From Pseudomonadota bacterium (GTDB lineage: Bacteria; Pseudomonadota; Gammaproteobacteria; Burkholderiales; Burkholderiaceae_C), in NCBI GenBank assembly GCA_021847345.1, contig JAJZTW010000012.1, positions 1-64,000 of the forward strand: DNA of 64,000 nucleotides. Reading direction: 5' to 3'. Positions 39,669 to 51,316 of this stretch are shown here, in pieces (the stretch's first letter is position 1; each line of letters starts with the position of its first letter). The notes below the pieces were generated by a model that did not search any database, was not told the origin of the DNA, and saw only the letters and a program-made list of their open reading frames with translations. The position numbers and the translations under genes are program-made.

Positions 39669-39830
39669 GAAGGTGTGAACGAATCCCCCATGCCCGCTGG
39701 ACCGCCCCTGGACGCCGCCCTGTGCGTTGCAAATCCTCGCCGTAGCAGGCGCTACGGCTGCGGTTTGCGCCTTCATGGCAGCGCCCCTGGTCGGCCCCTC
39801 GGCCACGGCCGATTCATTCACACCTTCTGA
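39666..39830. repeat. 165-bp nested palindromic element starting at the sdaA stop codon
   Basis: Outer arms TGAGAAGGTGTGAACGAATC (39666-39685) and the complement of 39811-39830 match at 18 of 20 bases. A central hairpin GCCGTAGC-AGGC-GCTACGGC (39739-39758) lies on the same symmetry axis (about 39748). Intermediate arm parts are imperfectly complementary (GCAAATCC against GGTTTGC). The architecture is the same as the element at 9434-9601 although the sequences differ. No coding capacity. Between 39831 and 40003, upstream of the diguanylate cyclase, I see nothing else. Confidence 0.7.
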
Positions 39831-40002
39831 GACGGCGCGCCCGCTGAGGCCCCGAGCCAGTCGACGCGCACCGCGCCGCCCGCGCCAATGCCATGCCGGC
39901 CAGGTGGCCAGCCCCGAACGGCCTGCTGATACGATCCCTGCGATCCCGGCGGGCCGGCTTGGCTCGCCCGAGGTCGCGGACAAGCCCGATCTCTGCGCAG
40001 CC

Positions 40003-42063
40003 ATGCCCCTGCGACGCCTGAACCTGCACAGCCGCTCGGCGCCAACGCGCTACGCGACGGCGATGGCCATTTTCCTGGCCGCGCTCGCTCTGCGCCTCGC
40101 CGTTCTCCCCGTGGAGCAGCGCGCCGGATTCCTGACCTTCTACCCCGCCATGGCGCTGGTGTTCTACCTGTGTGGAACCGGACCGGGCCTCTGGGTGCTG
40201 TTGCTGAGCTCGCTCAGCGGCTTCTACATCTTCTATCCACCCTTCTGGTCCTGGCGTGTCACGCCCACATCCGCGCTGACCACGCTGGCCTTCGTGGTCT
40301 CGTCCCTGATCATCGCCCTGGTCATGCGAACCCTGCAAAGCGCCAACCGGCGGCTCGCGCGGGCCCTCGCCCAGGTCGAGTTGAGTGATGCACGGTGGAA
40401 GGCGATCGTCGAGGACCAGACGGACGTGATTGCGCGCTTCGATGCCCACGGCGCCTTGCTGTTCGCCAACGGCCGTTCCCAGCACATGTTCGGCGACGCG
40501 GCGCGAGGCGTCGAACGCGGCAACTGGAAAGACGCGGTGCACCCGGAGGATTTGCCGAGGGTGCTCGATCAGCTGGCGAAGCTGACCCCGCAGAACCCGC
40601 AGGTTCGCTTTGATTGTCGCGTGGTGGACATCGACGGCAAGGTGCACTGGCAGGACTTCGTCGACCACGCCTTCTACGATGCCTCGGGCCGGCTGCTCGA
40701 AATCCAGAGCATCGGCCGCGACGTGACCCACCGCAAGGCCCTCGAAGGGCAGTTGCGTGAAGCCGAGGTCGCGCTGCGCGACCTATATGAGAACGCCCCG
40801 GTCGGCTACTTCTCGCTGGATGAGAAGGGCCATTTCCTGCGCTTGAACAAGGCCGTCGAGGACATCCTGGCGTGCAAGGCGGCCGACATGCTGGGCAGCA
40901 AGGGCCCGCAGGATTTCGCCACGCCGGACAGCCGGACGGTGTTCGCCACCCGGCTGAGGCAGCTCATCGACGAGGATCTCTCCACTCCCTACGAGCTCGA
41001 TCTGCTCGGCACCAACGGCCTGCTGAGACACGTGCGCATCCACGCAAGCGCCGTGCGGGATGCACGAGGAAACTTCCTGTACACCCGCTCTGCGATGCTG
41101 GACCTCACCGAGCTGCTCACGGCAAAGCGCGCGCTGGAGCATGTCGTGCGCGAGCAGCACGCCATGCTGCACAACGACCTCGTGGGCATCATCAAGGTGC
41201 GCCGACGCGAAACCATCTGGACCAATCCCGCCTTCGATCGAATGTTCGGCTACGCCCCGGGAGAGCTGCTGGGCAAGTCCTCGCGCGTTCTCTACCCCGA
41301 CGGCGAGGCCTACCTTGCCCTGGGACGCGAGGCGTACCGCATCCTGCAAGGCCGCGGAACCTTTCGCACGCAGGCACGCATGCTCAGGAAGTCGGGCGAA
41401 GCGATCTGGGTCGACATCAGCGGATCCCTGCTTTCCGAGACGCAGCAAGAGTCCCTGTGGATGATGCTCGATATCTCGGCGCTCAAGGCCCACGAGCGAC
41501 ACATCGAGGACATCGCCTTCCACGACTCGCTCACCGGACTCGCCAATCGTGTGCTGTTGCTGCAATTGCTGGAGCGGGAACTGGCGACCCGCCGACGCCT
41601 GGACAACGAACTGGCCGTGTGCTTCGTCGACCTCGACGGCTTCAAGCCCGTCAACGACCTTCATGGCCATGATGCCGGCGACGAACTCCTGCGAGCGACC
41701 GGCGAGCGTCTGCAGGAGAGCGTGCGCGGGCATGACATCGTCGCACGCCTGGGTGGCGATGAGTTCGTGGTCGTGCTGACCCACCTCTCGGACTCCGTCG
41801 TGGTGCGCGATACGCTGCATCGCCTGCTGGACCGCCTGTGCGCTCCGGTCGCGCTGCAGAACGGGGCTCTGGTGCGCGTTTCCGCCAGCCTGGGCGTCGC
41901 GATCTGCCCCGGAGACGGCGACAGCGCGCAAGTGCTGCTGCGGCGCGCGGATGAGGCCATGTACCACGCCAAGCGGGCCGGACGAAACCAGATACGGTTC
42001 TTCAACACCATTCCGGAGGTGGACGGTCTCCCCCGGGCTGCCCCCTCAGGCGACCCTGCCTGA
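40003..42063 (+). CDS. Membrane diguanylate cyclase: DUF4118 - PAS repeats - GGDEF, 686 aa
   Basis: Makes cyclic di-GMP. An N-terminal membrane block of the DUF4118 type (FYPAMALVFYLCGTGPGLW, GFYIFYPP) spans roughly residues 15-110. Three PAS-like domains follow (VEDQTDVIARFDAHG; LYENAPVGYFSLDEKGHF; IKVRRRETIWTNPAFDRMFG), each with PAC-type ends such as IGRDVTHRKALEGQL. The GGDEF domain has DSLTGLANR, FVDLDGFKPVNDLHGHDAGD and RLGGDEFVVV, with an RGHD inhibitory site five residues before GGDEF, so the enzyme should be active and product-inhibited. No EAL domain. The start at 40003 leaves out a long unconserved lead. Confidence 0.9.
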   Translation: MPLRRLNLHSRSAPTRYATAMAIFLAALALRLAVLPVEQRAGFLTFYPAMALVFYLCGTGPGLWVLLLSSLSGFYIFYPPFWSWRVTPTSALTTLAFVVSSLIIALVMRTLQSANRRLARALAQVELSDARWKAIVEDQTDVIARFDAHGALLFANGRSQHMFGDAARGVERGNWKDAVHPEDLPRVLDQLAKLTPQNPQVRFDCRVVDIDGKVHWQDFVDHAFYDASGRLLEIQSIGRDVTHRKALEGQLREAEVALRDLYENAPVGYFSLDEKGHFLRLNKAVEDILACKAADMLGSKGPQDFATPDSRTVFATRLRQLIDEDLSTPYELDLLGTNGLLRHVRIHASAVRDARGNFLYTRSAMLDLTELLTAKRALEHVVREQHAMLHNDLVGIIKVRRRETIWTNPAFDRMFGYAPGELLGKSSRVLYPDGEAYLALGREAYRILQGRGTFRTQARMLRKSGEAIWVDISGSLLSETQQESLWMMLDISALKAHERHIEDIAFHDSLTGLANRVLLLQLLERELATRRRLDNELAVCFVDLDGFKPVNDLHGHDAGDELLRATGERLQESVRGHDIVARLGGDEFVVVLTHLSDSVVVRDTLHRLLDRLCAPVALQNGALVRVSASLGVAICPGDGDSAQVLLRRADEAMYHAKRAGRNQIRFFNTIPEVDGLPRAAPSGDPA

Positions 42064-42116: not shown

Positions 42117-42911
42117 TCATCTCCCCGCGCCGGCGACACGAGTCGCGCGCAGATGCGGGGCGAGCAGCGACAGGTTGGTACCCAGCTTGAGCTGGTCGTA
42201 CAACATCGCGGTCACGATGTCTCGCTGCAACGGGTCCTGGATCCGCGACGAGATGCGCTCCAGCCCGGAGTCGATCTCGAACTGCCTGGCGCTGGTGACG
42301 ACCCGCCACTCCAGCAGGGTCTTGTGCCCGGCGGCATCGACCTCGACGCGGTAGGCGACGCCGGGGTGCAGCAGATCGCGACCGAGCCGAACCGCCTTGC
42401 CTGCCGACGAGCTCAGCACGGTCGGCTTCCCGCCCCCCGCGGCAAGCGGCTCGACCCGAACGCTGGCGTCCTTCGTCGCGGTTCCAGGCACCGCCAGTCC
42501 ATCCCGCGGAACGTACACGGGGACCGGATGCGGCGTGCCCATGCCCCTCATGTACGCGGGCTTCTGGTCCGCGCGGGTCGACGTCAGTTCCGACCAGGCC
42601 ACCCGCACCGAGCGCTCCTCGCTGCCCGGCCGCGGCACCTGCGCAACGCCGGAAGCGGTGATCGGGAGCAGCTTCGGCTTGCCCTGCGTGTCGACCCAGC
42701 TGGCCAGTGCATGCCCCGAGACCAGCCGCAGCTTCGCGCAATCGGCTGTCTCGAACACCGGCGAGCGCACCCCCTCGACCGAGGTCACCTTGGCCGAGGC
42801 ATCACCCAGCACCATGCAGGGGGTCGCGGCGTGCGCCGGCACGGCAAACGCCGACAGGCAGGTGAGCAATCCCGCCAGGCCGCCGAAGGCGGCTGAGAAC
42901 CTGATGGCCAT
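42117..42911 (-). CDS. Exported protein of unknown function in the secretion/caspase operon, 264 aa
   Basis: Signal peptide MAIRFSAAFGGLAGLLTCLS cleaved at AHA. The mature protein contains a domain with VRVAWSELTSTRA, a proposed sheet region GKAVRLGRDLLHPGVAYRVEV, and a helical end with DIVTAMLYDQLKLGTNLSLL. The last part faintly recalls DUF928 proteins that accompany FHA-type exoproteins in cyanobacteria; I hold that loosely. GGAGGGAAG lies upstream of ATG 42911. It begins 22 bases after the CHASE2 gene stop and is the last gene of the unit. Confidence 0.7.
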   Translation of the reverse strand: MAIRFSAAFGGLAGLLTCLSAFAVPAHAATPCMVLGDASAKVTSVEGVRSPVFETADCAKLRLVSGHALASWVDTQGKPKLLPITASGVAQVPRPGSEERSVRVAWSELTSTRADQKPAYMRGMGTPHPVPVYVPRDGLAVPGTATKDASVRVEPLAAGGGKPTVLSSSAGKAVRLGRDLLHPGVAYRVEVDAAGHKTLLEWRVVTSARQFEIDSGLERISSRIQDPLQRDIVTAMLYDQLKLGTNLSLLAPHLRATRVAGAGR

Positions 42912-42933
42912 GAGTCTTCCCTCCACGAAACGA

Positions 42934-44382
42934 TCAATGCAAGGCCGAGGAAAACGCCAGCAGCGGAAGCCCGGTCTGGATCAGCAGACTCGACACCGCC
43001 GCCAGCAGTTCGAACACCGCGCGCGGAGCACTCAGCTCACCGTCGACCGGAGTTCCGCGCGAATGGTTGCGCAGCAGGTGCAGCGCATGCCGGGCGGCCT
43101 TCCAGTCGCCCTGGATGGGCGCCACCACCACCTGGCGCCACGCCGCGCCCACGCTGTCGTAGCGCACCATCTTGTTCAGTCCCCAATTCCAGACGAAGAC
43201 CAGGTGGACGATGGCGCCGCCGCCCAGCACCGCCGACGGAATCCAGTACCCCGTGTGCACGCGCAGCTCCGCACTCGCGTCCGAGGCCAGCAGCACCGAG
43301 GCGACCACCACCGCGACCAGCACCAGGGGCCAGATTCGCTGCACGATGAAACGGTGGCCCGCGTACATCAGGCTCCACGACAGCAGCGAACGCTCGACGG
43401 CCATGTAGAGCAAGCCGATCACCACGTCGACGCAGGCCAGGAACAGCCATGTGACCAGGATCTGCAGACCCAGCGGCGCCATGCGCTCGCCCTGCACGTG
43501 CCCGGCGATCGCCGCGGCGTGCAGCTGCGCGCCGTAACGTCGACCCAGCGGCGTGCTCTGCAGGTCGCTCTTTCCCCAGCTGCCGCCCAGCACGACCCAG
43601 CGCGGAGAAGTCGCCAGCAGCAGGTCCCGCAACTGGCCCAGGTCCCCGCCGAAAGGCAGCACCAGACCGTCGCGCAGGTACTGAGGCGCCATCGGCGCGC
43701 TGACGCGGCGCAGCGCGCCAGGCCCCGTGCGCCCGGGCACGAGGGTGCTGGCGAGGTTGTCGCAATGCAGAGCGGGGTCGATCGCCGCCTGGCTCAGCGA
43801 TCCCCGGAACTGGAAGGCCGTCGACGCGTACCCGAAGTCGTAGGGAATGTAGGGCCAGCCCATGCGCACCCCGGCCCGGCACAAGGCCTGACGCCAGTAG
43901 GCGCGACCTGGAGACTTGGGCATCGCCGTCAACTCGGGAGCCGCCACCACCCAGCGTGCGCGGTGCCTGCCCAGGAAGTCCAGCAAGGCGTGCTGCGCGT
44001 GCCCGGGCAGCGGAGCCAGGTCCAGGTCCACCACGATGGCGCGAGCCCTGGGCGTGGCCGCGTCGATGGTCTGCATCAGCTTGAGCAGGCGCTGGCGATC
44101 CAGCGGAGAGCGCTCTCCGAAATAGTCCCGATACCCACGGTCGTCGATCAGCACCGTGGCGACCGAGGGCGGCGAGCCGCCGGCCAGGCTCAGATGGCTG
44201 GCCTGCACGAAATCGTGCGCCGCGAAGCTGCTGAGCAGGTATTTCCAGGCACCGGTGGACGTCAGGACCACCGCCGCTCCGCCGATGAACAGCGAGCCCC
44301 GCAGGGTGCGAATCAGCGCCTCGTAGAGGAATTGCCCCCCCAGTCGGTGGAGCAACGCAGCCACCCGCCGCTGCAGGCTCAC
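42934..44382 (-). CDS. CHASE2-domain membrane protein without output domain, 482 aa
   Basis: An N-terminal membrane helix (GSLFIGGAAVVLTSTGAW, about residues 28-45) is followed by a periplasmic CHASE2 sensor (VATVLIDDRGYRDYFGE ... ARAIVVDLDLAP) to about residue 310, then membrane segments (ILVTWLFLACVDVVIGLLYM; WPLVLVAVVVASVLLA; AVLGGGAIVHLVFVW) and a last hydrophobic stretch. No kinase, cyclase or phosphatase domain follows, unlike most CHASE2 receptors. GTG at 44382 overlaps the stop of the exoprotein gene (GTGA), so its translation depends on that of the caspase protein, implying stoichiometric or functional coupling. Confidence 0.82.
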   Translation of the reverse strand: MSLQRRVAALLHRLGGQFLYEALIRTLRGSLFIGGAAVVLTSTGAWKYLLSSFAAHDFVQASHLSLAGGSPPSVATVLIDDRGYRDYFGERSPLDRQRLLKLMQTIDAATPRARAIVVDLDLAPLPGHAQHALLDFLGRHRARWVVAAPELTAMPKSPGRAYWRQALCRAGVRMGWPYIPYDFGYASTAFQFRGSLSQAAIDPALHCDNLASTLVPGRTGPGALRRVSAPMAPQYLRDGLVLPFGGDLGQLRDLLLATSPRWVVLGGSWGKSDLQSTPLGRRYGAQLHAAAIAGHVQGERMAPLGLQILVTWLFLACVDVVIGLLYMAVERSLLSWSLMYAGHRFIVQRIWPLVLVAVVVASVLLASDASAELRVHTGYWIPSAVLGGGAIVHLVFVWNWGLNKMVRYDSVGAAWRQVVVAPIQGDWKAARHALHLLRNHSRGTPVDGELSAPRAVFELLAAVSSLLIQTGLPLLAFSSALH

Positions 44383-47300
44383 CGCGCGGCTTCCTGGAAA
44401 CTGCCGCGCTCGAACACATAGTCGGCCCCGGGCTGGTGTCCCGCGCTCAGCACCGCGCCGTAGCGCGGCGACTGCGGCAGCACGCTCTCGACGCCGACGC
44501 GCACCTGGCGGAACACCCCGTCGCCGTTGCGCCAACCGCGAATCGTGCGCAGGCTTCGCATCAGGTCGGACGCGAACACCGAATGCCCGTCGGCCCCGGT
44601 GTCGGCCACCGGCTCGTCACCGCCCGAGGACATCACCGTCACCGCGCGCCGGCGCAGCAGGGTGGCGATCGGGGGCACCTTGCGCAGGTCCACCACCTGG
44701 CGGTTCTGCACGAACTGGCCCGAGTAGCAGCTGTCCGAGATCACCGCGATCTGCCGGCTGCGCGCACGCTGCAGCAGGCGATCGATGTCCACGTTGGACA
44801 CCCAGCCCCGCGGATCGTCCGGATCGGCGTCACTGGGAATCCAGTACCCCTGCCCCGTGCTGTCGACCGTGTCGCCGTGCCCGGCGTAATAGATCAGGAT
44901 GCTGTCGTTCGGGCCGGCGTGCGCGATCAGGGTGTTCAGCGCACCGATCAGCTGGCGCTTGCCCGGGTTGCGCAGCAGCTCCACGCGGTAGCCCATCTCC
45001 CGCTGCAGCAGCCGCCTGATCGAGTCGGCGTCGGGCACGGTGCCGATCAGCCGCGGAATTCGAGGATCGGTGTAGTCGTCAAGACCGACCACGACCGCCC
45101 GAGCCACCCTCGGCCGATCGTCCACCGACGGATGCTTCGGCGGAACGTACAGGCAGGCTCCGCTCGCCGGGTCCTGGCCAGGCGCGCAATCGGGGACATT
45201 GGCGATGCTCGGGTCCGCCGCCAGTTGCCCGTTGGCGCGCGCGAACAGCTGGCGCATGTAGGCATTGCGCGCGTCGAGCACATTGCCGATTTCCCCGCGC
45301 TCCATGTCCTGCAGAGGAAGCACGCGGAAATACAGATGCGACAGGTCCGAGTCCAGGTACAGATACGGCGGTACGCTCAGCCCGCGCAGGGCCGCCGCAA
45401 GCGCGCCGCCACCAGGTGCAACTCCTTGTACGGACGGCCCGGCGGTGGGCACGAAATTGACAATCGACGAAGAGACACCGGACGGCCCGGGCTGCCCGTT
45501 CGCCGACGTCCTTGCGCCACCGGTGGTGGCTATCGCAACCTGTCCCCCCGACGCGGTTGACTGGCTCGGAGAGGTGCTAGAGGGCCCGATCTGGGCGAAG
45601 CTCAAGGCCGATTGCAGCGCGCCGAACGCTGATGCTGGAGCGCCTGACGGCGCCGGCACGATGGCCGCAGTGGGCCGGGCCGATGGGGTTGCCGGAGGCG
45701 GGGCGACCACAGGGGGCGGCGGCGGCGGCGGAGGAGGAGGAGGAGGAGGAGGAGGAGGCGGTGGCGCCGCCACAACCCCCGCCGAGCGCAGGCTGATCGA
45801 CGTCGGTGTTGCGCTGTTGCTGAGCTGCCAGTCGTTCGTGGGAGTGTTGAAGACGGTGTTCGCGAAACCTCCGCTCAAAGAGCCGAAATCGAGGTAGTTG
45901 AACAGGTCGCCAGCAGTCGGGACAAATCCCGACACCTGGCTCACCGAGAGCGTCCCGCCGAGATTCACCGGTCCCGACACGGCGAGCGTGCTGTAGCCAA
46001 TCCCCGGCGTGACGCCTCCGAGATTGACCTGGATGGTTCCGGTCGAACCTTCGTTCAAACCTCCCAGAATGCTCAAGGTGCCGGCACTGCCGTTCGACGC
46101 GCCGGCGATGATGGTTCCCTGGTTGGTCAGCACACCCTGGCTGCTGCCGGCCGCGACCGTGAGATCAAGCGTTCCCGTTCCCCGGATCACGCCGCCGGCA
46201 GGATTGGTGAAACTCCCCAAGGTTTGCACGGAGGCCCCGGAGTCCACCTCGAGGCGACCCTGGTTGAGCAGACGGCTGCCCTGGATCTGCAGCAGCCCCG
46301 TGCCCGTCGCCTCGATCGTGCCCTGGTTGAGCACGCTCGTCGTGCTCGAGCCCAGGATGCCCGGGACGCCGCCGATCGCGCTGTTGGCATCGACGGTCAC
46401 CCCCGGCCCGATGCTCAGCGTCGTCCCGGACTGCGTGGCCGTCACCGTGTCGCTGTTGCCGCCCCCGAGGCTCACTACCCCCGAGCCCAGCAGTGCCGGC
46501 GACGCCCCGCTGAAGTACAGCCCTGAGCCAAGAGAGCCCGACACAGCTACCGTGACACCCGCGTTCATCGTCAGCGTGTCCGGAATCGTCACCGAAGTGC
46601 CGAAGCCGACGATCTCCAGGTTCGCCCCCAGCGTCACCCCTGAAAGAATGTTGCTGGTACCCCGAATGTTGGACGTACCCCCTGTGCTCAGCACCTTGCC
46701 CGTCGTGCTGCTGATCGTGCCCCCCTGGATAATGCCCCCGCGCAGCAGCAGGCCGCCCATCGCGTCGATGTTGTAGCTCTGCCCGACGTTGTTCCACGTC
46801 CCGTCCAGCACAAACACCCCCGAGCCGCTGCCGCTCGCCCCCGCCAGGCTCGTCGTGCTGAACGTACCCCCCAGCCCCACCGTCCCGCCGCTCTGCGCCA
46901 GCAACTGCCCGCTGCTCGACCAGGTCCCCGCCAAAAGCACCTGGGCACTCGGGCCCACCGCCTGGATCGTCCCCTGGTTGCTCCAGTTGTTGTCCAGAAT
47001 CTCCAGCAGCCCCGTCCCCGTCGCCTCGATCGTGCCCTGGTTGAGCAAGCTCGTCGTGCTCGAGCCCAGGTTGCTAGGTTGGCTGTTCACGCCATCCACC
47101 GTCATCCCCGGCCCGATACGCAGCGTCGCCCCGGACCGCGTGGCCGTCACCGTGTCGGGGTTCGACGACTGCAACAAGCTGCCTATGCTCACCACTCCCG
47201 AGCCCAGCAGCGCTGGCGTCGCCCCGCTGAAGTCCAGCGCTGCGTTGTACCCCGACACCGCCACCGTGCTGCCTGCGTTCACCGTCAGCGTGTCCGGAAC

Positions 47301-49109
47301 CACCACCGTGCTGCCAACCCCGCTAGTGCCAAACCCGCCAATCTCCAGGTTCGCCCCCACCGTCACGCCCGACAGCGTGCTGCTCGTGCTCGGCGCCGTG
47401 CTCAGCACCTTGCCCGTCGTACTGCTGATGGTCATGTCCTGCAGTGAACCACCACTCAGCGTGGCGTTCGCGCCCAATTCCAGCACGCCACCATTCAAAG
47501 CAATGCTGCCCGTGCCCGGGATGGAAATCGTGCCGCTACCGCCCTCCTCGTTCGCATTCAAATCCAGATTCAATGGCCCCGAGGCAATGCCACTGACGCC
47601 ACTGCTTGCGGAGCTGATCGCGCTGTCGATGTTGATGTTGTTCCACGCATTCAGCGTGAGGGTCGCGCCCGACGCCGGCGTGGACACGCTGATGGGGCTC
47701 GACACCGTGATGTTGCCGGCGTCCGTTCCCGGGCTGGCTCCTCCGGTCGAAATCGTCACGTTCGTGCCCGCGTTCAACGCCGACTCGATGACACTCGGAT
47801 CGATGGTCGCGGGGTCGGCCGTGCCGGTGTAGCTCGGGCCGCTCCCCACGTTGCTCGCCGCGCCGCTGCCGGACACGATGTTCACGTCGTAGGGGTCGAT
47901 CAGCCACCCGCCGGCGATGCCGTTCGGGGCCGACGCGTCGGGCACGGCTTGCAGATCCAGCGCACCGCTGGACGAGGTTTCGATCAAGCCACCGTTTCCG
48001 GACACCTCGCCACCGCGCGCGCTCAACGCGCCGAGTACCGTGGTCGAGTCGGTCGCACGCAGCGCGATGTGGCCGCCGTTGCCGACCGCGGCGGCGTCGG
48101 CCCGCAGGCTGCCCGAGCTGCTCACGTCGATGGATGCCGCACCCACCGTGACGCTGCCACCGTTGCCGCTGCCGGCCGCGCTGACATCGACGCTCCCCCC
48201 CAGGTTCACCGCACCCTGGCTGCTGGCGATGTCCACCGAGCCGCCCTGCGCCTGGGTCAGGCTGCCGGTGGCCAGACGGGTGTCACCCGCCGATCTCAGC
48301 ACGACATGCCCGGCCGCGTCCTGGCTGGTGCCGGTGGCGACCACGCTGCCCTGCTGGTTCACCACCGCGCCGTAGATGTCCACGTCCCCGGCGGCCACCG
48401 AGCCTTCCTGGCTGGCCAGCCCGGCCAGCGACGGCACCTGGAAGCTCATGAACGGGGTGTTGCTGTCGGCCAGTTGCACCTGGCTGGCTGCGAGCAGCGA
48501 CGCGCGCCCCCCGGGCACCTCGATGCTTCCGCCGTTGGTCACGCTGGAGCCGACCAGCAGCACCTGTCCACCATAAGGCGTACGAATGCTGCCCTCGTTG
48601 ACCACCGCCGCGGATCCGGCGGGAGCCGAGGCGAGCAGGCCACCTCCCGCCAGAAAGGCCCGATTGTCGATATCCAGCGTCGAGGCCACCAGGCCCGCGA
48701 CGTCCACGCGCGCCCCAGCACCGAACAGCACCCCATTCGGATTGATCAGCCACACCTGCCCGTTGCTGCGAAGCTCGCCCAGGATGTTCGACGGGTCCTG
48801 CCCGACCACCCGGTTGAGCACCGCGCTGCTCGCCCCCGGCTGCTGGAACACCACCTGGTTGCCTGCGCCGATGGAAAAGCTGTTCCAGTTCAGGATGGTG
48901 CGCTGCCCGGTCCGCACTTCGAGCGTGCTGCCCGACTGCGAGGCCACCGCCTGCCCGGCCACCACCTGCATGCCCGTGGGCAGCGCCGCTGCGCCTGCCG
49001 AGGCCTGCGCCATGACCGACAGCGCCGCTGCCACGCTCCAGGCCAGGGGCTGCAGTCGCGGGCAAGACTTGCGGGCCGGGCCGCCACCGTGCTGAGAAGC
49101 GTTGCGCAT
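44379..49109 (-). CDS. Two-partner-secretion exoprotein (FHA type) with C-terminal caspase-like peptidase, 1576 aa
   Basis: Signal peptide to about residue 40. TPS secretion domain with ILNWNSFSIGAGNQVVF, a VLNRVVG segment and WLINPNGVLFG (NPNG at 123-126). A long Ser/Gly/Thr-rich beta-helix passenger follows, containing two copies of a 143-146-residue block (about 561-703 and 798-943). An 18-residue poly-Pro run near 1113-1131 separates it from the C-terminus. From about 1330 lies a peptidase C14 (caspase/metacaspase) domain: RAVVVGLDDYTDPRIPRL, IYYAGHGD (His1411), ISDSCYSGQF (Cys1461), both catalytic residues intact. GAGG is nine bases before ATG 49109; the ATG at 49115 is a close alternative. 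Should be exported by the upstream TpsB. Confidence 0.88.
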   Translation of the reverse strand: MRNASQHGGGPARKSCPRLQPLAWSVAAALSVMAQASAGAAALPTGMQVVAGQAVASQSGSTLEVRTGQRTILNWNSFSIGAGNQVVFQQPGASSAVLNRVVGQDPSNILGELRSNGQVWLINPNGVLFGAGARVDVAGLVASTLDIDNRAFLAGGGLLASAPAGSAAVVNEGSIRTPYGGQVLLVGSSVTNGGSIEVPGGRASLLAASQVQLADSNTPFMSFQVPSLAGLASQEGSVAAGDVDIYGAVVNQQGSVVATGTSQDAAGHVVLRSAGDTRLATGSLTQAQGGSVDIASSQGAVNLGGSVDVSAAGSGNGGSVTVGAASIDVSSSGSLRADAAAVGNGGHIALRATDSTTVLGALSARGGEVSGNGGLIETSSSGALDLQAVPDASAPNGIAGGWLIDPYDVNIVSGSGAASNVGSGPSYTGTADPATIDPSVIESALNAGTNVTISTGGASPGTDAGNITVSSPISVSTPASGATLTLNAWNNINIDSAISSASSGVSGIASGPLNLDLNANEEGGSGTISIPGTGSIALNGGVLELGANATLSGGSLQDMTISSTTGKVLSTAPSTSSTLSGVTVGANLEIGGFGTSGVGSTVVVPDTLTVNAGSTVAVSGYNAALDFSGATPALLGSGVVSIGSLLQSSNPDTVTATRSGATLRIGPGMTVDGVNSQPSNLGSSTTSLLNQGTIEATGTGLLEILDNNWSNQGTIQAVGPSAQVLLAGTWSSSGQLLAQSGGTVGLGGTFSTTSLAGASGSGSGVFVLDGTWNNVGQSYNIDAMGGLLLRGGIIQGGTISSTTGKVLSTGGTSNIRGTSNILSGVTLGANLEIVGFGTSVTIPDTLTMNAGVTVAVSGSLGSGLYFSGASPALLGSGVVSLGGGNSDTVTATQSGTTLSIGPGVTVDANSAIGGVPGILGSSTTSVLNQGTIEATGTGLLQIQGSRLLNQGRLEVDSGASVQTLGSFTNPAGGVIRGTGTLDLTVAAGSSQGVLTNQGTIIAGASNGSAGTLSILGGLNEGSTGTIQVNLGGVTPGIGYSTLAVSGPVNLGGTLSVSQVSGFVPTAGDLFNYLDFGSLSGGFANTVFNTPTNDWQLSNSATPTSISLRSAGVVAAPPPPPPPPPPPPPPPPPPVVAPPPATPSARPTAAIVPAPSGAPASAFGALQSALSFAQIGPSSTSPSQSTASGGQVAIATTGGARTSANGQPGPSGVSSSIVNFVPTAGPSVQGVAPGGGALAAALRGLSVPPYLYLDSDLSHLYFRVLPLQDMERGEIGNVLDARNAYMRQLFARANGQLAADPSIANVPDCAPGQDPASGACLYVPPKHPSVDDRPRVARAVVVGLDDYTDPRIPRLIGTVPDADSIRRLLQREMGYRVELLRNPGKRQLIGALNTLIAHAGPNDSILIYYAGHGDTVDSTGQGYWIPSDADPDDPRGWVSNVDIDRLLQRARSRQIAVISDSCYSGQFVQNRQVVDLRKVPPIATLLRRRAVTVMSSGGDEPVADTGADGHSVFASDLMRSLRTIRGWRNGDGVFRQVRVGVESVLPQSPRYGAVLSAGHQPGADYVFERGSFQEAAR
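45731..45759. repeat. AGG/CCT trinucleotide microsatellite encoding poly-Pro
   Basis: Nine uninterrupted GAG-phase triplets (GGAGGAGGA...) read as CCT proline codons on the minus strand, flanked by GGC/GCC Pro codons. Slippage would change the length of the linker before the caspase domain without altering frame. Confidence 0.85.
46281..46717. repeat. Internal repeat copy 2 in the exoprotein passenger
   Basis: About 437 bp encoding ISSTTGKVLST ... LLNQGTIEATGTGLLQI, closely similar in DNA and protein to 46999-47429 about 712 bp away, for example the shared stretch encoding SSTTSVLNQGTIEATGTGLL. A segmental duplication within the beta-helix. Confidence 0.8.
46999..47429. repeat. Internal repeat copy 1 in the exoprotein passenger
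   Basis: About 431 bp encoding ISSTTGKVLST ... LLNQGTIEATGTGLLEI. See the paired copy at 46281-46717. The unit between copies (NNWSNQGTIQAVGPSAQVLL ...) is not duplicated. Confidence 0.8.
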
Positions 49110-49123
49110 ACCCATCGTCCTCG

Positions 49124-50737
49124 TCACAAGGCAAACACAAGATCCGCGTGCACGCGCCAGTCGCCGCGCTGCGTGCCGCCGGCGTTCTCGCCTGCTCGCG
49201 CCACGTCCAGGCGCAGCAACGCCGACTCGATGCGCAAGCGCAGCCCCACCCCGGCGCCCCAGATGCTGCAGTGCGTCCGCCCCGGCAGGCACTGCACGCC
49301 CTGGCGGTCGGCCACCGTTCCGGCGTCGACGAAACTGACCGCGCGCAGCCCGTCCGCGGCCCCCGGCGTCCCCTCGGCTGCCTGCGCCAGCGGCACGCTG
49401 AACTGCAGGCTGCCCGAGGCTCCCGAATCGCCCACCAGCGCCGTCTCCGGGTAGCCCCGCACGCTGCGGGCGCCACCGATGCCGAACTGCTCGGCGAACA
49501 CCAGCGGCTGCGCGCTGTACTGCGCATCCACGCGCCAGCCCAGGCGGCGCCGGGCCGCAAGGCCGTGCTCTCCGGCGGCGTCCAGGCGCAGCAGGTGATA
49601 GCTGCTGCTCGAACCCGGCCGCGCGGCCTCGAAGGCCGCCTGCTGCCCGGCGCTGCCCACCGGCAGGTTCTGCACCAGGGTGAGCTGGCCCATCGATCCG
49701 CCGATGCTTTGCAGCTGATAACCCAGCGACAGCGGCAGCACGTCCAGCGAGGCTCCCGCCGAGCCGCAACCCGCGGCGCCGAAGCTGCCCAGGCTGCAGT
49801 CGTTGCGGTAGCGCCGCGCATCGACCCCGACGAAGAACTCCTGCCGGTAATGCCCCAGCAAAGGTTGCAGCCACAACGCGCGAACCCCGGCCGAATAGCC
49901 CTTGCCGGTAAAGCGCAACTCCCCGGCCGGCGTGGCGATCGGCCGGTCCGACGTGTTCGAGGCCAGCGCCGACCACTCCAGGAACATGTGCCGCGCGTAC
50001 AGCGGCTGGCGCAGCGTCGTGCTCAGCATCGCCGCGTCCGCCGGCCTGTCCGGCGAGGCCTGCAGTCGCACGCGCAGCACGCTGTCGCTGTCGAGCAGGT
50101 TGGCGTCGCGGTACGCCAGCGTCGCCCGCATGCGCCCTGTCTGCGAATTGCCCGTGTTGTCCAGCCCGAGCGTCCACTGCCGGATCGGACGCTCACGCAC
50201 CACCACCAGCGATTGCACCTGCCCCAGCCGCTGCCCGGGCTGGAACACCACCCGCACCGCCTTCGCCGGGTTCTCGTTGACCATCAGCAACTCGCTGTCC
50301 AGCGCCGCCAGGTCCGGGACCTGACCCACGCGCAGTGCCGGCAGGCCGCGCAGCACGTTGGCGCGCGTGAAGGCGCGCAGCCCCGCCACGTCGACCTGGC
50401 TCAGCCGGCCCTCGATCACCCGCAGCTCGATGCGGTGATGCGAGATGGTCTGCGGCGGCACCTGCACCACCACCGTGCCGTAGCCCGCCTTGCGGTACGC
50501 CAGTTGCAGGCGCTGCGCGGCCAAGCGGATGACTTGCAGCCGCGGTCGTGCCGGCGCTGTGCCCAGCGCCTGCGCGATCTGTGCCGCGCTCAAAAGCGTG
50601 TTGCCTTCCACGCTGTACATGTAGTTCTGCGGCGCCGCCGCGACGGCGACCGATGCCGCGCAGCCGCAGGCGATCGCCGCGAGCTTGCGGCACACGCTCG
50701 ACACGCCGGCCATGCCGGCAGAGCAAAGGGTGGACAT
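49124..50737 (-). CDS. TpsB/ShlB-type outer-membrane transporter with POTRA domain, 537 aa
   Basis: Omp85-superfamily pore for two-partner secretion. Signal peptide to about residue 34 (AVAAA), then a POTRA domain (SVEGNTLLSAAQIAQALG ... QLAYRKAGYGTVVVQVPPQ, RIELRVIEGRLSQVDVAG), then a 16-strand-type barrel with alternating aromatic/Gly pattern. The conserved channel motif is SVRGYPE (VRGY at 426-429). The C-terminus DLVFAL ends in a beta-strand as expected. Its stop is only 14 bases before the exoprotein start, and GAGG precedes its own ATG, overlapping the region of the upstream stop. It should secrete the FHA-caspase protein. Confidence 0.92.
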   Translation of the reverse strand: MSTLCSAGMAGVSSVCRKLAAIACGCAASVAVAAAPQNYMYSVEGNTLLSAAQIAQALGTAPARPRLQVIRLAAQRLQLAYRKAGYGTVVVQVPPQTISHHRIELRVIEGRLSQVDVAGLRAFTRANVLRGLPALRVGQVPDLAALDSELLMVNENPAKAVRVVFQPGQRLGQVQSLVVVRERPIRQWTLGLDNTGNSQTGRMRATLAYRDANLLDSDSVLRVRLQASPDRPADAAMLSTTLRQPLYARHMFLEWSALASNTSDRPIATPAGELRFTGKGYSAGVRALWLQPLLGHYRQEFFVGVDARRYRNDCSLGSFGAAGCGSAGASLDVLPLSLGYQLQSIGGSMGQLTLVQNLPVGSAGQQAAFEAARPGSSSSYHLLRLDAAGEHGLAARRRLGWRVDAQYSAQPLVFAEQFGIGGARSVRGYPETALVGDSGASGSLQFSVPLAQAAEGTPGAADGLRAVSFVDAGTVADRQGVQCLPGRTHCSIWGAGVGLRLRIESALLRLDVARAGENAGGTQRGDWRVHADLVFAL

Positions 50738-50746
50738 GCCGGCGCC

Positions 50747-51316
50747 TCAGTCTTCGAGCAACCAGTCGCTGTATGCGACCAGCGGGTGCTCCGGAGTCGC
50801 CGTGCGCAGACCGGCCGCGAAGCGCAGCGCCTGGGCAGGGTCATCCACGCCATAGGCCGTGCCAACGGGCCGTCCGTGCCGGGTGTCGAACACCATCAGC
50901 AGCGGCACCCTGCCGGCCGCCGTGTTCCAGGCGCGCAGACGCGGCAGCGTGAACTGGCGCTGCAGGAAGGCATCCTCGGCACAGGCCGTGACACCCTCGC
51001 AGGCATCGCGAGGCCCCAGCAGCCGATACAGGCCGTGGCCGGCCGGCGCGAGCACCACCAGGTCATAGGAGCGCATGGCGAAGCGCACGGCCGGATCGTG
51101 CGCTTCGATGGCCTCGGTACGCGAAGAAAGCGCCGACTCGTCATGGCTCGCCAGCACCAGCAGCGCAACGCCCCGCTGCCCTGCATCCCGCGCGGCTCGT
51201 TGCGCCTGCTGCAGCGTGCTCGACAACCCGCTCGCGGCGTCCGCCGGGGCCCGGGCGAATACCGCGAGTACGGCGCCGAGCAGTAATGCGCGAATCGCGC
51301 GTCGGAAATGACTCAT
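50747..51316 (-). CDS. Exported protein of unknown function, first gene of the secretion unit, 189 aa
   Basis: Signal peptide MSHFRRAIRALLLGAVLAVF cleaved near ADA. The mature protein has alternating strands and helices: GVALLVLASHDE, MRSYDLVVLAPAGHGLYRLL, RVPLLMVFDTRHGRPVGTAYG. The order suggests a thioredoxin-like fold without a CxxC motif; two Cys (DACEGVTACAED) may form a disulfide. I do not recognise the family. It ends nine bases before the tpsB start, so it is co-transcribed. The ribosome site before ATG 51316 is weak. Confidence 0.72.
   Translation of the reverse strand: MSHFRRAIRALLLGAVLAVFARAPADAASGLSSTLQQAQRAARDAGQRGVALLVLASHDESALSSRTEAIEAHDPAVRFAMRSYDLVVLAPAGHGLYRLLGPRDACEGVTACAEDAFLQRQFTLPRLRAWNTAAGRVPLLMVFDTRHGRPVGTAYGVDDPAQALRFAAGLRTATPEHPLVAYSDWLLED

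Follow-up and report, generated by a model that had tools for sequence, protein, structure and literature searches.

What does a membrane receptor control when it has a sensor domain, lacks a recognised output domain and is encoded immediately behind a caspase that is predicted to leave the cell? This question is raised by a run of five open reading frames (ORFs; 42117-51316) on the minus strand of contig JAJZTW010000012.1 (GCA_021847345.1), from a Pseudomonadota bacterium of the Burkholderiaceae_C, of which positions 1-64,000 were analysed (hereafter the window, 64,000 nucleotides in all). The run encodes, in order, a 189-amino acid (aa) protein, a TpsB transporter, a TpsA exoprotein ending in a C14 caspase domain, a CHASE2 receptor, and a 264-aa protein referred to here as P264 (Table 1). 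Four of these genes, encoding TpsB, the TpsA-caspase, CHASE2, and P264, are the core of a real, recurring unit. We propose that this core may act as an envelope sensing module in which CHASE2 and P264 form a sensor controlling the exported caspase effector, a reading in which our confidence falls slightly short of even.

The caspase exoprotein, its receptor, and P264

TpsB and TpsA constitute a two-partner secretion (TPS, type Vb) pair by gene content. TpsA has a TPS domain (residues 43-299; PF05860, 3.7e-26; TIGR01901, 1.1e-23) with an NPNG motif at residue 123, and the adjacent TpsB contains ShlB (PF03865, 1.5e-18) and POTRA_2 (1.9e-9) domains according to Pfam, with the VRGY motif at residue 426, where the first-pass annotation of this DNA had placed it. 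TpsA is accordingly predicted to be secreted. Its C-terminal part contains a proline tract (residues 1116-1133) ahead of a Peptidase_C14 domain (residues 1337-1524; PF00656, 3.6e-17, 63.2 bits vs. a cut-off of 21.4). The same annotation had described a 1576-aa protein with an intact catalytic dyad, and this holds: His1411 and Cys1461 are present, and the dyad is intact in 25/25 aligned sequences, namely that of the window, those of 14 related members of its caspase group, and those of 10 further caspases. The structure prediction of the C-terminal domain that it had recommended gave a mixed outcome, as the best Foldseek matches were the MALT1 paracaspase and metacaspases (~3e-6 to 1e-5) and the model itself was of low confidence (predicted local distance difference test score, pLDDT, 53.4). 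Export of TpsA and protease activity of its caspase domain are inferred. No internal repeats were found in TpsA as off-diagonal blastp matches at E 1e-5, and the only C14 match in its own genome is TpsA itself. Elsewhere in this genome (contig C1, L111:8435-12661), another TPS-domain protein is encoded, which is at least 1409 aa long and reaches the contig end.

The CHASE2 domain narrowly passes its threshold (PF05226, 3.4e-7, 30.5 bits vs. a cut-off of 26.3) and is the sole Pfam match in 482 aa. No attached output domain (kinase, cyclase, GGDEF, etc.) was recognised by Pfam over this length, which bears out the earlier description of a sensor lacking its own output. Hydropathy analysis placed four segments after the CHASE2 domain (308-326, 353-371, 380-398, and ~456-477), the last two being separated by ~57 aa. 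An N-terminal hydrophobic segment is below the threshold in the window protein and above it in two relatives (L070 and L071). The receptor probably resides in the inner membrane.

P264 has an N-terminal hydrophobic segment and no Pfam family at cut-off. Its AlphaFold2 model has a mean pLDDT of 65.7, with block means of 80-94 across residues 131-250, and the C-terminal part is modelled as strands, a predicted Ig-like domain, followed by three helices. The third Foldseek match was the C-terminal domain of MtxA from Magnetospirillum (4z29, E 6e-4, TM-scores 0.33/0.46); the remaining matches below 0.001 were amylomaltase chains with lower TM-scores than that of MtxA. A comparison of the P264 sequence profile with solved structures returned nothing below E 0.08, and MtxA was not retrieved in this way. 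Two identities were considered without gaining support from the sequence, namely a FecR protein (PF04773) and a DUF928 protein (PF06051), neither of which gave a Pfam match; for DUF928, moreover, the best probability in profile comparisons was 16.5%, and the hidden Markov model (HMM) of the family misses P264. Relatives of P264 are scarce, with one other genome besides its own among 150 of the family, and with its own copy plus two weak partial matches, whose called ORFs show no P264 relative, among 398 of the phylum.

As first described, all five ORFs are located on one strand with gaps of at most 22 bp. From the coordinates, the spacings are 9 bp, 14 bp, a 4-bp overlap between TpsA and CHASE2, and 7 or 22 bp. 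The overlap was confirmed, the GTG start of CHASE2 being situated 4 bases inside the TpsA stop, and the last gap shrinks from 22 to 7 bp if P264 begins at an alternative GTG (42926; 269 aa). The 189-aa gene also has an alternative ATG further upstream, which would extend its product to 232 aa. A scan of the locus found no promoter-like site and as many terminator-like sites as expected (4 observed vs. 4.2). In a library of defence-system models, TpsA was matched by a caspase model only, and the other four proteins matched nothing. Compared with close relatives, CHASE2, the caspase end of TpsA, P264, and TpsB have fewer nonsynonymous than synonymous changes per site (dN < dS), and these genes are therefore maintained. 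On the plus strand, a convergent gene (39727-42063) encodes a DUF4118-PAS-GGDEF protein, its end separated by 53 bp from that of the unit; tblastn did not match it in the related locus L066.

Table 1. Genes of the run in the window, listed in their order on the minus strand
Feature	Coordinates	Strand	Start or basis
189-aa exported protein	50747..51316	-	ATG 51316; head of run
TpsB outer-membrane transporter, 537 aa, ShlB/FhaC type	49124..50737	-	Pfam
TpsA exoprotein with C-terminal C14 caspase domain, 1576 aa	44379..49109	-	ATG 49109; Pfam
CHASE2 membrane receptor without recognised output domain, 482 aa	42934..44382	-	GTG 44382; Pfam
P264, exported partner protein, 264 aa	42117..42911	-	ATG 42911; N-terminal hydrophobic segment

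Recurrence of the sensor pair with clan CD proteases

Genome contigs were scanned with an alignment made from the window CHASE2 and a single relative; of the 79 matching stretches, six encode relatives. In L067 and L068, TpsB, TpsA with the caspase domain, CHASE2, and P264 occur in the order of the window, and the same order is kept in L066, where the contig begins within TpsB. The more distant L071 encodes a caspase, CHASE2, and P264 in this order (42%, 31%, and 40% identical, respectively) on a contig that begins inside TpsA; TpsB and a TpsA N-terminus, the latter 48% identical to that of the window, are found on a separate contig of this genome that is not joined to it. In L069, CHASE2-P264 heads a run that also encodes a TPR-CHAT protein (PF12770, 9.5e-55), a caspase-free TPS protein, and TpsB. 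Taken together, P264 follows the window-type CHASE2 in 7/7 loci including the window, and a clan CD protease is part of the run in six of the seven (C14 in five, a TPR-CHAT protein with a TPS pair in one). With 71-94% identity in CHASE2, the loci of the window, L066, L067, and L068 are closely related; the seven loci were therefore counted as four lineages, and a clan CD protease accompanies CHASE2-P264 in three of these. That the neighbourhood exceeds chance rests on this recurrence and not on a computed expected rate. Beyond these loci the receptor is rare: the window-type CHASE2 was found in its own and two other genomes of the family sample (150 genomes), in its own genome plus five weak partial matches in the order (399 genomes), and in no plasmid searched. 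A more distant CHASE2 gene in L059 is followed by a P264-like gene (P264 HMM, 1.5e-4) and then by an M48 peptidase gene (L059:6039-9972), i.e. another peptidase beside a similar sensor pair; nearby ORFs resemble CRISPR-associated genes.

The first gene of the run behaves differently. The 189-aa protein has no Pfam family at cut-off, and tblastn found no counterpart of its gene in L066-L071 or L127. DNA upstream of TpsB is visible in L067, L068, and L127, whereas L066 and L071 do not allow a judgement on this region. In the 150 family genomes, a paralogue in its own genome and one weak match with an internal stop were found. The paralogue (36% identical; contig C57, L110:1144-1731) stands alone, and no TPS-like ORF was recognised by eye across 8 kb around it. 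The ORF predicted by the first-pass annotation thus exists, but the five-gene unit into which it had been placed is ruled out, as the 189-aa gene is missing where upstream DNA is visible and its lone paralogue lies elsewhere; it is probably a local addition outside the core.

The relatives also bear on the possibility that TpsA delivers its caspase domain into neighbouring cells by contact, with CHASE2 or P264 serving as the immunity protein. The order of TpsB, TpsA, and a downstream gene at a short gap resembles that of cdiBAI. In polymorphic toxins, the C-terminal end is the variable one. Here, however, the C-terminal domain of TpsA is 90%, 88%, and 84% identical to that of the window in L066-L068, compared to 86%, 79%, and 71% for the TPS end, and farther loci are similar at both ends (caspase end vs. 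TPS end, 42% vs. 48% in L071/L127 and 43-49% vs. 46-50% in five family loci that show both). With no variable C-terminal toxin region, this conservation pattern leads us to reject a contact-dependent inhibition (CdiBAI) system. Furthermore, CHASE2-P264 also exists without a TPS gene nearby, and a 482-aa receptor is unlikely as an immunity protein, making contact-dependent delivery a very improbable explanation of the locus.

The exchange of C14 for CHAT in L069 extends to another phylum. Plasmids were searched with the CHAT protein of L069, which yielded 173 matching records; 11 cyanobacterial regions were hand-picked among the 40 matches listed. TPS, CHAT, DUF928, and CHASE2 occur together in five of these (Anabaena cylindrica, Planktothrix agardhii, Pseudanabaena ABRG5-3, Nostoc C052, and Nostoc UHCC 0302), although 5/11 is not an unbiased rate, one region (H26) having been picked since DUF928 appeared in its listing. 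Two further regions combine CHAT, CHASE2, and DUF928 without an annotated TPS gene, and another two have CHAT and DUF928 without CHASE2, the two genes being adjacent in Acaryochloris (L085) and ~8 kb apart in L087; in total, DUF928 is present in 9/11 and CHASE2 in 7/11 regions. The Acaryochloris CHAT gene encodes a TPS-TPR-CHAT fusion of 1756 aa beside DUF928, a design like that of the TPS-C14 fusion in the window. Of 11 CHAT proteins (that of L069 and ten from cyanobacteria), eight, including the one from L069, have a strongly hydrophobic, signal-like N-terminus; that of L085 is weaker, and the annotated N-termini of L086 and L088 lack strong hydrophobicity. In the comparison with FHA-CHAT loci proposed in the first-pass annotation, CHAT thus replaces C14 in L069 and the cyanobacterial sets while CHASE2 is kept. 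The locus is a proteobacterial variant of a theme of clan CD protease, CHASE2, and TPS that is also found in cyanobacteria. We suggest only tentatively that both phyla share one design, in which CHASE2 and a partner (P264 or DUF928) would gate C14 or CHAT proteases delivered by, or alongside, TPS proteins, with both the sensing and the cleavage taking place beyond the cytoplasm.

CHASE2 receptors with recognised effector parts also occur. Among seven cyanobacterial CHASE2 proteins scanned, an N-terminal CHAT region was present in four, an AAA-like region in one, and a histidine-kinase ATPase in two. A TIR-CHASE2 protein (TIR_2, 5e-18; CHASE2, 2e-22) followed by a FecR-domain gene was found in L134 (3859-6412), and a TIR protein in L135 (4077-6110) was retrieved by a CHASE2-family profile search without having a Pfam CHASE2 match. 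CHASE2 receptors thus seem to carry immune-type effector domains (CHAT, AAA-like, TIR) in several genomes. Twelve classical CHASE2 loci were also hand-picked; a FecR-domain gene is adjacent or one gene away in five of them, with neighbours put to Pfam in 7/12 and none in the other five. In one of these five, L094, the FecR-domain gene is on the opposite strand. We read P264 as the version of such a periplasmic CHASE2 partner that is used in the window.

Sensing, proteolysis, and the alternatives

No enzyme other than the caspase was recognised in the run, and on the simplest interpretation, CHASE2-P264 sensing would control an extracytoplasmic protease. In this model, TpsB would export TpsA, whose adhesin-like stalk would display the caspase domain at or beyond the outer membrane. 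CHASE2 would be a receptor of the inner membrane whose sensor domain lies in the periplasm, working with periplasmic P264 as the sensing half of the module, and this pair would control when the caspase is exported, activated, or released, perhaps while TpsA crosses the periplasm. Extracytoplasmic proteolysis would then replace the usual cytoplasmic output of CHASE2 receptors.

Several observations weigh against this reading. In the family sample searched with the caspase end of TpsA, ten strong loci were found in nine other genomes, and these closest caspase loci contain no CHASE2 or P264 gene by tblastn and HMM and no 189-aa gene by tblastn. TpsB and a TPS domain were seen in five of them and TpsB alone in one (L035); in the four showing neither, the stretch or contig ended early. 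The single CHASE2-HMM match among these loci, in L042, is a cyclase that contains an FHA domain but no CHASE2 domain and was retrieved because of cyclase parts in the training set of the HMM. In the sole same-genus genome sampled (G032), searches with the caspase end, CHASE2, P264, and the 189-aa protein all came back empty. Three Azospirillum plasmid genes encoding TPS-caspase proteins (TPS by annotation) have neither an annotated TpsB nor CHASE2, P264, or DUF928 by HMM within 12 kb. Conversely, CHASE2 and P264 stand alone in L070 (the L058 locus), with no TPS or caspase match within ~8-10 kb, the TPS proteins of this genome being on other contigs, and two of the 11 cyanobacterial regions have TPS and CHAT with neither CHASE2 nor DUF928 by annotation and HMM. 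The fold match between P264 and MtxA is weak in TM-score, and the profile comparisons do not support homology of P264 and DUF928. Lastly, receptor and caspase are predicted in different membranes, so that contact between them requires either the periplasmic passage of TpsA or a bridge formed by P264.

The neighbours of these sensor-free loci vary. The Azospirillum genes (L112, L113, and L114) have a conserved position between a ParA-family gene and hmgA. L038, L039, and L040 have OmpA-family genes close to the caspase end, L035 has a DsrE-family gene as a neighbour, and ORFs next to the caspase genes of L033 and L039 resemble type VI secretion genes in their N-termini. Since TPS-caspase genes occur without CHASE2, the fusion has the wider distribution, and coupling to CHASE2 is one of the arrangements in which it occurs. 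The earlier inference that the caspase is fixed to a CHASE2 sensor, for which missing conservation of CHASE2 and the small genes beside the TPS pair had been named as a refutation, stands in part: the coupling recurs in L071 and, with CHAT, in L069 and cyanobacteria, and CHASE2 and P264 recur together with the TPS protease, but both are missing from the ten closest family loci, and the 189-aa gene is not conserved.

This absence from the closest family loci, together with the lack of a match to either half in the same-genus genome, would be expected if the genes were neighbours by chance and formed no unit. The 4-base overlap, the location on a single strand, and a gene order that is preserved in L067 and L068 and, as far as they are visible, in L066 and L071 argue against such a coincidence, as does the existence of a parallel set in a second phylum. 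Chance adjacency is made so unlikely, by L071 and the cyanobacterial sets in particular, that we give it hardly any credence.

A different division of labour would leave the caspase as a maturation or shedding protease that cuts its own exoprotein after export and thereby sets it free, with CHASE2-P264 as a separate sensor cassette merely sharing the transcript. The position of the caspase at the TpsA C terminus, behind the proline tract, agrees with this view, as does the independent existence of TPS-caspase genes and CHASE2-P264 pairs. On the other hand, L069 and the five full cyanobacterial sets have CHAT on a separate protein, yet CHASE2 and a small exported partner are present, and the sensor and protease halves meet in several lineages. 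We regard this explanation as unlikely. CHASE2 and P264 might instead be accessories that assemble or anchor the exoprotein without any controlling role, which the missing output domain would readily accommodate, and the OmpA-family genes near the caspase end in three family loci could likewise provide an anchor. CHASE2 domains are sensory in described systems, however, and the fusions of scanned CHASE2 proteins to CHAT, AAA-like, histidine kinase, or TIR domains fit a receptor role, so that a purely accessory function seems rather improbable to us.

Control of the caspase by the CHASE2 receptor thus remains our preferred reading, and an exported caspase as the output of such a receptor is, in our view, the part worth testing. 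Discussions of caspase homologues in bacteria usually treat them as agents of cell death acting in the cytoplasm. If the proposal is true, the recurrent coupling of a caspase or CHAT protease to TPS and CHASE2 would place regulated caspase-type proteolysis outside the cell, and the locus may represent a little-described bacterial route for sensing and cutting proteins there. It also points to what CHASE2 domains may read, namely an exported partner protein encoded alongside, and the four genes offer a compact test case.

Comparison with known systems

Literature searches, which mostly did not extend to subscription papers, returned no paper describing CHASE2 with CHAT, either alone or together with TPS or filamentous hemagglutinin proteins, TPS with a caspase, or CHAT with filamentous hemagglutinin. 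In the literature covered, DUF928 appears in a single paper, which deals with WD40 proteins. The accessory domains of cyanobacterial orthocaspases have been listed (PMC8283722), and hemagglutinin and CHASE2 domains are absent from the main text of that account. The closest published relative of the receptor-caspase link is a metacaspase-CHASE2 fusion of Trichodesmium erythraeum (PMC3501461), which likewise connects a caspase-type protease to a CHASE2 receptor; as presented in the relevant passages, however, it is a single polypeptide with a metacaspase predicted to be cytoplasmic, whereas the caspase of the window is separate from the receptor and part of an exoprotein.

Two further systems resemble the sensing half. 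In magnetotactic bacteria, mtxA is followed by a conserved gene resembling adenylate cyclase and CHASE2 (PMC4439547, in the section on this gene pair). MtxA is an exported protein with Ig-like and helical domains, which the P264 model weakly resembles, and it too is encoded beside a CHASE2 gene, but the output there is a cyclase, and that section mentions no protease or TPS pair. In the BiofilmReg operon of Burkholderia, a gene for a LysM-FecR protein adjoins that of a CHASE2 histidine kinase (PMC5192318), and a periplasmic partner gene is thus again next to a receptor gene. As described in the part of that study dealing with the operon, which calls what CHASE2 domains sense unknown, the output is a kinase with a response regulator and includes no exported protease.

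The secretion half corresponds to FhaB/FhaC-type two-partner secretion in its TpsB with a POTRA domain and its TpsA with a TPS domain and NPNG motif, and differs in that TpsA of the window terminates in a C14 peptidase domain. The whole arrangement is most closely approached by the cyanobacterial sets, which are annotated in genome records and for which no describing paper was found in the literature covered. Like the window, they combine a TPS exoprotein and a clan CD protease with CHASE2 and a small exported partner. In contrast to it, the protease of the full sets is a CHAT domain on a separate TPR protein instead of a C14 domain on TpsA, the CHASE2 proteins scanned have a CHAT, AAA-like, or kinase part of their own, and the partner is a DUF928 protein, to which P264 showed no convincing similarity in profile comparisons.

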